NCBI RefSeq assembly: GCF_004343585.1
Contig: NZ_SLYW01000003.1
Coordinates: 434,001-498,000, forward strand
Length of the DNA: 64,000 nt
Source of the DNA: Neorhizobium sp. JUb45
GTDB taxonomy: Bacteria > Pseudomonadota > Alphaproteobacteria > Rhizobiales > Rhizobiaceae
Direction: 5' to 3'
How positions within the stretch are numbered: position 1 is the first letter of the stretch; the number at the start of each line of letters is the position of its first letter. A program made the position numbers and the translations under genes. The notes beneath the pieces were generated by a model. That model made no database searches. It was given only the letters and a program-made list of their open reading frames with translations, and was not told where the DNA came from. Positions 47,396 through 49,083 of this stretch are shown in pieces.

Positions 47396-48400
47396 TTACA
47401 GCCAGCCCTTGCGCTTGAAGTAGAGGAACGGCAGCGCCATCGACACGATCATCAGCACCAGTGCCATGTGATATCCATAGTGCCACTGCAGCTCGGGCTG
47501 AAACGCGAAGTTCATGCCATAGACGGATGCCACCAGCGTCGGCGGCAGAAAGACCACGGAGGCGACCGAGAAGATCTTGATGATCTGGTTCTGCTCGAGA
47601 TTGATCAGCCCCAGCGTTGCATCGAGCAGGAAATTGATCTTTCCCGACAGGAAGGCGGAGTGGTCACCCAGCGACGTGGCATCCCGCTGCAAGAGCTTGA
47701 GGCGCTGGCGCAGTTCCTTTGACAGCTTTCTGTCCACACCATCGAGCGCCGCATAATAGGCGACGGCACGCGAGACGCTGACAAGGCTTTCCCGCACGAC
47801 GGTGATGAACTCGCCCTTCAGGCCGATCTCGCGCATCAGTTCCTGCAGGTCGCGGGTCTTCTTGTCGGCCTTGCCGGTCTTGGTCTCGAACACGTCGCGG
47901 GAAATCTGGTCGATATCGTTGCCGAGCCGTTCCAGCGTATCGGCCATACGGTCGATGATGGCCTCCACCAGACCGGTCATCACCAGTTCGCCATAACCAC
48001 AATGAACACCACCACCGCCACCGCGGCGGGCACGCGCCATGAAGGCATCGAACGGACGCGGCTCGGCATGGCGCACGGTGACGAGAGCCTGCCCCTTGAT
48101 GATGAAGGTGGCCGGAACCTTTCGCGGTGCGCCGGCATCGGGCCGCGTCAGCACGGTCATGGTCATGAACTCGGCGCCGTTCTCCTGATAAAGGCGGGCG
48201 GAAAGCTCGATATCTTCCATCTCGTCGGCAGTCGGCACGGCGATGCCGAGCAGATCGCCGACGAGGCGCTCTTCCTCGGCAGTCGGCGAGACCAGATCGT
48301 ACCAGACGGCATTGGCAAGGAGGTCGGCAGCCGGCAGTTCCACCGGATCGGTGGCAACGGTGACGAGACGATCAAGGTCGTGGGCATGGATGCGCAGCAT
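47396..48400 (-). CDS. corA: CorA-family magnesium (divalent metal) channel
   Basis: Encodes 334 residues. The large cytoplasmic funnel ends in a long helix and two C-terminal membrane helices, with the pore signature YGMNF (GMN at 295-297) after helix 1 and the basic tail KRKGWL. It carries Mg2+ (possibly Co2+ or Ni2+) into the cell; a ZntB-type role is less likely given the intact GMN but not excluded. ATG 48400 is preceded by AGGAG buried in a strong hairpin and by a 19-codon leader ORF, indicating translational control. Confidence 0.93.
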   Translation of the reverse strand: MLRIHAHDLDRLVTVATDPVELPAADLLANAVWYDLVSPTAEEERLVGDLLGIAVPTADEMEDIELSARLYQENGAEFMTMTVLTRPDAGAPRKVPATFIIKGQALVTVRHAEPRPFDAFMARARRGGGGGVHCGYGELVMTGLVEAIIDRMADTLERLGNDIDQISRDVFETKTGKADKKTRDLQELMREIGLKGEFITVVRESLVSVSRAVAYYAALDGVDRKLSKELRQRLKLLQRDATSLGDHSAFLSGKINFLLDATLGLINLEQNQIIKIFSVASVVFLPPTLVASVYGMNFAFQPELQWHYGYHMALVLMIVSMALPFLYFKRKGWL

Positions 48401-48404
48401 GGCA

Positions 48405-48437
48405 GCTCCTATCGGGGACCATCGGTTCCCCGGGAGC
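48405..48437 (-). promoter_or_regulatory. Hairpin sequestering the corA ribosome-binding site
   Basis: On the mRNA, GCUCCCGGGGA (48437 to 48427) pairs with UCCCCG (48418-48413) and GGAGC (48409-48405), giving 11 base pairs with a 3-base bulge and an 8-base loop. The paired GGAGC is the corA Shine-Dalgarno, five bases before the ATG. The left arm also contains GGGAACC (48430-48424), fully complementary to GGUUCCC (48463-48457) at the end of the leader ORF, so the two structures are mutually exclusive. A small GAUCC/GGAUC hairpin (48441-48455) lies between. Confidence 0.7.
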
Positions 48438-48453
48438 CATGATCCGGACAGGA

Positions 48454-48513
48454 TCAGGGAACCAGAGAAACGGGTCGGTATGGTGACGTCGAACTTCGAC
48501 TGTCGGGGTTCAT
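48454..48513 (-). CDS. 19-residue leader peptide of corA (MgtL-like in design)
   Basis: Encodes MNPDSRSSTSPYRPVSLVP, starting at ATG 48513 with AAAGGA eight bases upstream and stopping 53 bases before corA. Proline occupies positions 3, 11, 14 and 19, the last directly before the stop codon, a context known to slow termination. The N-terminal NPD recalls the EPDP start of enterobacterial MgtL, whose acidic/proline nascent chain makes ribosomes abort in low Mg2+. The similarity is in layout and composition; homology cannot be claimed. Confidence 0.6.
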   Translation of the reverse strand: MNPDSRSSTSPYRPVSLVP

Positions 48514-48681
48514 CTCGGTTGTCCTTTGAAAGAACGGCGTCCGGTCGGGCGCCGTCATGCCGCTGCCATGCGCCCGATTGGCCGCGAAGTCAACGGCTTT
48601 TGTGCGTTTGCGCTAATGTTGCGAGGCGATTGAAACCGGCATGGATTTGCGCCATTCAAGGCCTGGGCAGGGAGACGCAGT

Positions 48682-49083
48682 TTGAACGTTCGCAAGGGCA
48701 CGCCGCCCGTCATTTCCGAAGCGCAGATCATGACCAAAGCCGCCGTCATTGCAGCGGATCGGCTCGGTCTGGACACTGCCACATTCGCAACCACGATCGG
48801 CGTCAGCGAAACACGCATCGTTGAAATGACGCGGCTGGAGGACCTGTTGCGCAAGGGCACACCGCCCTTCGAGCGTGCACTTCTGCTGATCCGGCTTTTC
48901 CGTACACTGAAACATGCCGGAGACGAGATCACGGCACGCAAATGGCTTCATGAGCAGAACGACGCGATGGGATGTCGACCGATCGAGATGGTCACCGAGC
49001 CTGACAATCTCGGGAAGCTGATCCGGCATCTCGAGGATGAAGCGATGGCAAGGGAACCCGGTTGCATGGACGGCGTTCAATAA
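48682..49083 (+). CDS. MbcA/ParS/Xre antitoxin-family protein without adjacent toxin
   Basis: Encodes 133 residues from TTG 48682, with AGGGAG seven bases upstream. The N-terminal half looks like an Xre-type helical domain (LGLDTATFATTIGVSETRIV). The C-terminal half matches the toxin-binding domain of this family: LLLIRLFRTLKHAGDEITAR, then KWLHEQNDAMGCRPIEMV. Such antitoxins normally neutralise a RES-domain toxin encoded immediately downstream. None is present: the next genes are two unrelated small ORFs. It may be a solitary regulator or the remnant of a toxin-antitoxin pair. It is divergent from the corA leader. Confidence 0.75.
   Translation: MNVRKGTPPVISEAQIMTKAAVIAADRLGLDTATFATTIGVSETRIVEMTRLEDLLRKGTPPFERALLLIRLFRTLKHAGDEITARKWLHEQNDAMGCRPIEMVTEPDNLGKLIRHLEDEAMAREPGCMDGVQ

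Follow-up and report, generated by a model that had tools for sequence, protein, structure and literature searches.

The window analysed here is a 64,000-nt stretch of Neorhizobium sp. JUb45. Its reverse strand carries corA preceded by a leader that contains a short upstream ORF (uORF) and several predicted hairpins (Table 1). The corA product scores 194.8 bits against TIGR00383, slightly below the cut-off of 200.75; its translation contains YGMN, and CorA chains are its nearest solved structures. The same genome has a second corA, with 43% identity to the one in the window, and a motif scan of its leader (L002) found no uORF. Further upstream of the window uORF is a promoter-like motif, TTGAC-N(16-20)-[CG]CA[TC] in its general form, which occurs in 86 of 140 leaders as against 0 of 140 mononucleotide-shuffled upstreams and in those 86 precedes the uORF by 60-89 nt. 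It would fit a leader beginning about 45-50 nt before the uORF; a generic sigma-70 promoter scan gave no match. A search of the window against Rfam gave no match at gathering score. Adjoining the corA promoter region is a divergent ORF of 133 aa (window 48682-49083, forward strand) without a Pfam match.

Table 1. Features of corA and its leader (positions are those of the window).
Feature	Position	Strand	Basis or description
corA, 334 aa, Mg2+ channel	47396..48400	-	Pfam PF01544, E 5.5e-49
SEQ hairpin	48405..48437	-	GCUCC (48437-48433) with corA Shine-Dalgarno (SD) GGAGC (48409-48405), plus inner stem
AS (anti-sequester) hairpin	48423..48472	-	uORF tail with left arm of SEQ; encloses uORF stop and P1
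GGGAACC, inner left arm of SEQ, common to AS and SEQ	48424..48430	-	
P1 hairpin, GAUCC/GGAUC over uORF stop	48441..48455	-	leader folds
uORF, MNPDSRSSTSPYRPVSLVP*	48454..48513	-	sequence; ATG 48513-48511, stop 48456-48454
GGUUCCC, last uORF codons, 5' strand of AS in the register first described	48457..48463	-	
P0 hairpin, GAC(A)GUCGA-AGU-UCGAC-GUC	48485..48504	-	within uORF codons 4-10
uORF SD, AAAGGA	48522..48527	-	sequence
Promoter-like TTGAC-N17-GCAT	48568..48593	-	motif only, candidate

An earlier note on this DNA had described the uORF with its own AAAGGA site, ending 53 nt before the corA ATG (48400), a hairpin that pairs the corA SD with GCUCC, and a GGUUCCC in the last uORF codons complementary to GGGAACC in the left arm of that hairpin. 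The observation itself is real: every one of these positions and the 53-nt spacing proved correct on re-reading. Folding of the whole 151-nt leader is no better than that of shuffles (z -0.69), and its MFE structure includes the GCUCC:GGAGC hairpin. SEQ also appears in the centroid of 48401-48453 and, in a shifted form, in a fragment with the corA ATG, where the MFE hides both the SD (GGA with UCC) and the start codon (CAUGGC:GCCAUG). Sub-fragments fold modestly better than shuffles (48422-48480, which covers AS, z -1.98; 48401-48453, z -1.61). The tail-arm helix of AS has, besides GGUUCCC:GGGAACC, a second register, UUCUCUGG:CCGGGGAA, which is the MFE. In the window the AS and SEQ folds have 10 arm nucleotides in common, and their energies are -23.0 and -23.4 kcal/mol, respectively. 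In the MFE of 48401-48453 itself SEQ is replaced by another helix, in which GAUAGGA at the SD pairs with UCCUGUC downstream of the uORF stop. Its UCCU at 48453-48450 can pair with the SD AGGA at 48410-48407, and in view of the cognate preference for after-stop:SD across clusters (see below) there may be a third pairing of the corA SD.

Close-relative loci were taken as the best 80 of 264 relatives from one scan of genome contigs. In the window and in all 80 of them the uORF starts with ATG followed by [N/D]-x-[D/S]-[S/G]-R, at a distance of 98-125 nt from corA. In one leader (L104) an additional C just ahead of the stop shifts the uORF frame, which then continues into corA; this may be a real overlap or an assembly error. 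For a sample of the family, 80 further leaders were taken from the places listed for family genomes. The uORF is present at 25 of 27 further CorA orthologs (59-66% identity), the exceptions being L136, whose start codon is lost, and L137, which reads MQADGRR. The other 53 leaders fetched belong to more distant (<=55%) or paralogous CorA; one of them (L184) had no CorA match, and a motif scan found an M[N/D]PDSR uORF in none of the 52 analysed.

The 18-base pattern ATGRAYCCNGACAGTCGA occurs in 29 of 247 family genomes, in 28 of these at corA. Its exact form was found in 4 of 249 genomes of an order sample (3 at corA, including the window) and in 2 of 289 genomes of a class sample, namely the window and L269, the only other class-level match, which reads ATGGATGCAGACAGTCGA. 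In L203, of the same order, the pattern opens, at about position 1501, an ORF MDPDSRMTAPADPDPAQNDPEK... that is rich in early Asp and Pro. The ORF looks like one for a CorC-type protein, and the pattern there may be a chance match or another Mg2+-linked use of this N-terminus. The uORF is also present in two further families of the order, where the pattern occurs in 34 of 136 genomes of the one and in 1 of 4 of the other (L202). A CorA search independent of the pattern found CorA in 64 of the 136 genomes at E<=1e-80. Of the 31 orthologs without the exact pattern, 14 have kept the uORF; motif matching found none at the other 17, which is an upper estimate because a few starts are poorly assigned (e.g., L239).

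What is conserved in the uORF was examined in 108 leaders, from which L133 (mis-windowed, although it has the uORF), L136 and L137 were dropped and identical leaders collapsed. The resulting 93 distinct leaders form 24 clusters at 80% identity (set 1). Their N-termini read MNPDSR (63), MDPDSR (23), MNPDGR (2), MDPSSR (2), and MNLDSR, MDSDSR and MDTDSR (1 each). The earlier note had singled out NPD and a terminal Pro as residues to check. The first stood up well, with an M[N/D]PD start in which Pro3 is kept in 90 and Asp4 in 91 of the 93 leaders; position 2 is Asn in 66 and Asp in 27. The second did not: the last residue is Leu in 32, Arg in 23, Pro in 12, Ser in 11 and another in 15, and with Pro last in just 12 of 93 leaders we reject a terminal Pro-stop as the stall signal. 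The uORF is 14-22 codons long in 92 leaders (50 in L104), and its end varies in residue and length while the start is invariant, the conserved part being the N-terminal M[N/D]P[D/E]SR.

Codons 4, 5 and 6 are GAC, AGT and CGA, each in 91 of the 93 leaders. Across 60 loci, AGT makes up only 1.7% of Ser codons and CGA 2.6% of Arg codons within the first 300 codons of corA, and the near-fixation of these rare codons points to a constraint on the RNA or the codons. The start of the uORF could accordingly be an RNA or codon element (P0 and the rare codons) that senses a cue other than Mg2+, such as arginyl- or seryl-tRNA supply or initiation rate; such a reading would fit the near absence of synonymous change in codons 4-6 and the recurrence of P0 in 19 of 24 and 13 of 14 clusters (sets 1 and 2). 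We consider it unlikely, since among the 14 uORFs without the exact pattern Ser5 is recoded in nine (TCT in seven, TCC in two) with the peptide kept, seven TCT/TCC representatives show no P0 signal, and there is no run of a single amino acid as in tRNA attenuators. The switch of Ser5 between codon families with the peptide unchanged indicates that the peptide also matters, and it makes a pure RNA element with a chance ORF improbable. The other five of the 14 read MQPDSR (twice), MNRDSR, MNSESR, with Asp4 replaced by Glu, and MGSDSR; several of the 14 begin with GTG.

The hairpins were compared across three sets of leaders, each clustered at 80% identity within the set. Set 2 groups 30 of 32 loci from other families into 14 clusters (L215, at a contig end, and L218, whose uORF runs on, were dropped), and set 3 comprises 17 leaders in 13 clusters, 14 of them chosen by CorA orthology and 3 bearing the pattern. 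Sets 2 and 3 are almost wholly of one family, and the 51 clusters correspond to 49 across sets, as two leaders of set 3 resemble members of set 2 at 83% (L252) and 89% (L268). In alignment A1 MAFFT had placed the SD arm one column off, and alignment-free tests were therefore used; L104, counted among the 93 leaders, was left out of the fold tests. SEQ folds better than shuffles (z<0) in 22/24, 13/14 and 13/13 clusters of sets 1, 2 and 3, and AS in 20/24, 14/14 and 13/13. Against dinucleotide shuffles the mean z in set 1 is -1.92 for SEQ and -1.52 for AS; summed z-scores overstate significance, since the clusters are not phylogenetically independent.

In a cognate test of 28 leader-segment pairs over the 24 clusters of set 1, only three pairs prefer the partner from the same genome at p<0.05. 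For arm:SD the z is -7.95, with 0 of 3000 permutations; tail:arm reaches p 0.0003 (z -3.35), and after-stop:SD, which in short leaders belongs to that left arm, p 0.0007 (z -3.75). Start:after-stop ranks fourth (p 0.053). With other segment boundaries arm:SD remained at 0 of 5000, tail:arm at 0.0036 and start:tail at 0.85. Set 2 gave p 0.0016 for arm:SD and p 0.001 for tail:arm, with start:tail at 0.084, start:arm at 0.79 and tail:SD at 0.07. When segments were swapped between nearest relatives (44 clusters at 90%), tail:arm showed no cognate preference (19 better, 25 worse, p=0.70) and arm:SD a weak one (27/17, p=0.03); segments differ little at that distance, and coevolution is visible only between clusters. 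Beside the SD core, position +3 is occupied by C-G, G-C or U-A pairs and positions +4 to +6 by any of the four Watson-Crick types, as read from MFE folds and hence biased towards structure.

The corA SD is paired in 44 of the 51 clusters, a sequestration of the type known for mgtQ, while 7 lack a clear SD pairing. In 39 of 51 the AS and SEQ folds have three or more arm nucleotides in common, and the tail pairing of AS is absent in 5. The leaders are thus predicted to adopt two mutually exclusive structures, one of which uses the uORF, although AS is not distinguished against nearest relatives. The earlier note had made its proposal depend on close relatives keeping the uORF and showing compensatory changes in both helices, and the outcome was favourable, with the uORF in 80 of 80 loci and cognate preference in both helices. 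Of the two-structure switch that it proposed, the conserved uORF, the SD-sequestering hairpin and the competing tail:arm pairing are supported, and the terminal Pro falls away.

Other elements are less general. P0 gave z<0 against shuffles in 9/13 clusters of set 3, and it is not general because z is -0.8 to +0.9 in the seven TCT/TCC representatives of that set. Start:tail (1:2) pairing exceeded shuffles in 22/24, 10/14 and 8/13 clusters of sets 1, 2 and 3, and in the cognate tests of sets 1 and 2 it showed no preference (p=0.85, 0.53, 0.084). A general four-region attenuator of the mgtQ kind, with 1:2 and 3:4 against 2:3, was therefore rejected. In many Rhizobiaceae leaders P0, or codons 4-6 pairing with the tail, may tune the switch.

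Comparison among relatives shows a conserved uORF together with a predicted SD-hiding SEQ (the putative off state) and a predicted competing AS (on), and a regulatory uORF with a two-state SD switch is very probable. Our overall reading, to which we give a probability of about 0.6, is that the leader acts in cis to attenuate translation of corA in a uORF-dependent manner. AS, the earlier of the two to be transcribed, would form as long as no ribosome reads the uORF tail. Once a ribosome completed the uORF, the tail would be stripped from the arm, SEQ would close and CorA would not be made; that completion of the uORF represses corA seems likely. If the ribosome instead paused or dropped off at the first codons (MNPDSR), or did not initiate, AS would persist, the SD would stay open and CorA would be made.

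Folding of the window leader with a simulated ribosome gave 3.0 tail:arm pairs when free, 9.3 with the ribosome on the early codons and 0.0 with it at the stop, and 11.6, 6.2 and 11.9 arm:SD pairs in the same order, shifts that go in the direction of the model. Mean SD accessibility over 24 clusters was unchanged in masked equilibrium folding (0.30 free, 0.29 early, 0.32 stop), and in the window it was 0.18, 0.24 and 0.29, highest at the stop. The model therefore needs co-transcriptional kinetics. Mean energies of AS and SEQ are -21.3 and -21.7 in set 1, -27.3 and -24.3 in set 2 (where one long leader weighs on the mean) and -26.2 and -22.1 in set 3; the greater stability of AS in sets 2 and 3 would favour the on state after the ribosome leaves.

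The switch could also have the opposite sign. A ribosome pausing at the uORF end or stop would then cover the anti-SD and open corA by translational coupling, with the N-terminus setting initiation only. The anti-SD starts within 12 nt of the uORF stop in 25 of the 44 clusters with clear SD pairing, including 10/12 in set 2 and 10/11 in set 3, close enough in these two sets for a stop-bound ribosome to mask it directly. With the stop masked in cluster L082, arm:SD pairs fall from 12.0 to 4.1 and SD accessibility rises from 0.01 to 0.40. In the window, however, the distance is 18 nt and arm:SD stays intact under the same mask (11.9). The distance exceeds 12 nt in 16 of the 21 set-1 clusters with clear SD pairing, and it is the uORF end that varies in residue and length, not the start. 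Coupling of this sign is rather unlikely in our judgement.

Under the attenuator reading, the likeliest cue would be low intracellular Mg2+. Attenuators of Mg2+-transporter genes carry a short uORF in their leaders, as is predicted for corA here, and Mg2+ is favoured because M-[N/D]-P-D matches the M-E-P-D of MgtL in position. By this analogy Mg2+ is the signal with somewhat better than even odds, and destabilisation by the nascent peptide is the sensor with odds a little short of even. In MgtL, EPDP leads to early ribosome drop-off at low Mg2+, which is countered by EttA; toeprints with EttA place Pro3 in the P site, and Glu2 and Asp4 matter (PMC11282234, in the part of the paper available). 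The likeness lies in the acidic and Pro residues at positions 2-4 (MEPD vs M[D/N]PD). MgtL, however, has two acidic residues and two Pro, whereas most leaders here have one of each followed by Ser-Arg, and Asn2 in 66 of 93 leaves a single acidic residue, which is weaker than MgtL. In the published model, mgtA is moreover under Rho-dependent termination (PMC11282234, same part).

Closer in design is Salmonella mgtQ of mgtCBR, with Asp2 and Glu5, which frees the mgtB RBS through alternative hairpins. According to the accessible text of PMC8092293, it shares with the leaders here the short uORF, early acidic residues, alternative hairpins, an RBS that is hidden or released and, as predicted for the leaders here, a translational effect. 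It differs in having 8 aa, being intergenic and preceding a P-type ATPase gene, and its 2:3 pairing can form when region 1 is occupied by a ribosome (PMC8092293, same text). In the rhizobial leader, by comparison, one strand of the predicted releasing hairpin is supplied by the uORF tail, and a start:tail (1:2) helix is no general feature.

The nearest counterpart by gene is corL. In E. coli, corA was regarded as constitutive before the study of its uORF-bearing leader, in which corA expression varies inversely with translation of corL; this leader, too, has a uORF before corA and two mutually exclusive structures, but corL acts with Rho on transcription and sits in a three-way junction (PMC11552253, available part). 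In the rhizobial leader, instead, the predicted competing hairpins are built with the uORF tail and with the SD of corA. corL is reportedly the subject of work by Kriner and Groisman. Rho-dependent attenuation as proposed for corL and mgtL, in which uORF translation exposes a rut site and the SD hairpin is secondary, has a precedent in corL of E. coli and Salmonella, which works with Rho (PMC11552253, available part). Here the covarying helix includes the corA SD itself, which points to translation, and a mere 43-66 nt separate the uORF stop from corA in set 1; we regard Rho as the main agent as quite unlikely.

The earlier note knew of no such design for alphaproteobacterial corA. We likewise found none in the literature searched. 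The note had missed the two closest precedents, corL before enterobacterial corA (PMC11552253) and mgtQ before mgtB (PMC8092293). Among the matches listed, titles and abstract openings held no description of a uORF before corA in this group. The literature searched contained no such corA regulation outside enterobacteria and no instance of the string MNPDSR. A term search of the main text of an S. meliloti Ribo-seq paper (PMC10117765) found neither corA nor MNPD. Conserved sequences immediately upstream of genes were excluded in an S. meliloti RNA screen of 2007, the available part of which does not name corA (PMC2780559).

The rhizobial corA switch looks like a separate invention that resembles the enterobacterial Mg2+ switches, and if the uORFs before corA are a family of their own with an MgtL-like N-terminus, this would suggest that ribosomal Mg2+ sensing evolved more than once. 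Tentatively, M[N/D]P[D/E]SR might be a new, convergent Mg2+-sensing nascent peptide that sets CorA synthesis in several families within a single alphaproteobacterial order, without Rho or an aptamer. If so, about six residues in the ribosome would report cytoplasmic Mg2+, with the uORF tail as a strand of the releasing hairpin. The system is compact, with separable peptide, codon and RNA contributions, and as rhizobia live in soil and nodules, the switch may matter there.

Two natural variants of the uORF start may be added. L136, a CorA ortholog whose leader is like the others, has no uORF start codon and amounts to a natural test without the uORF. In L241 and L244 the start seems duplicated, with GGACCCCGACA immediately 5' of GTGAACCCCGAC, perhaps an old start (now ACG) followed by a new GTG start.
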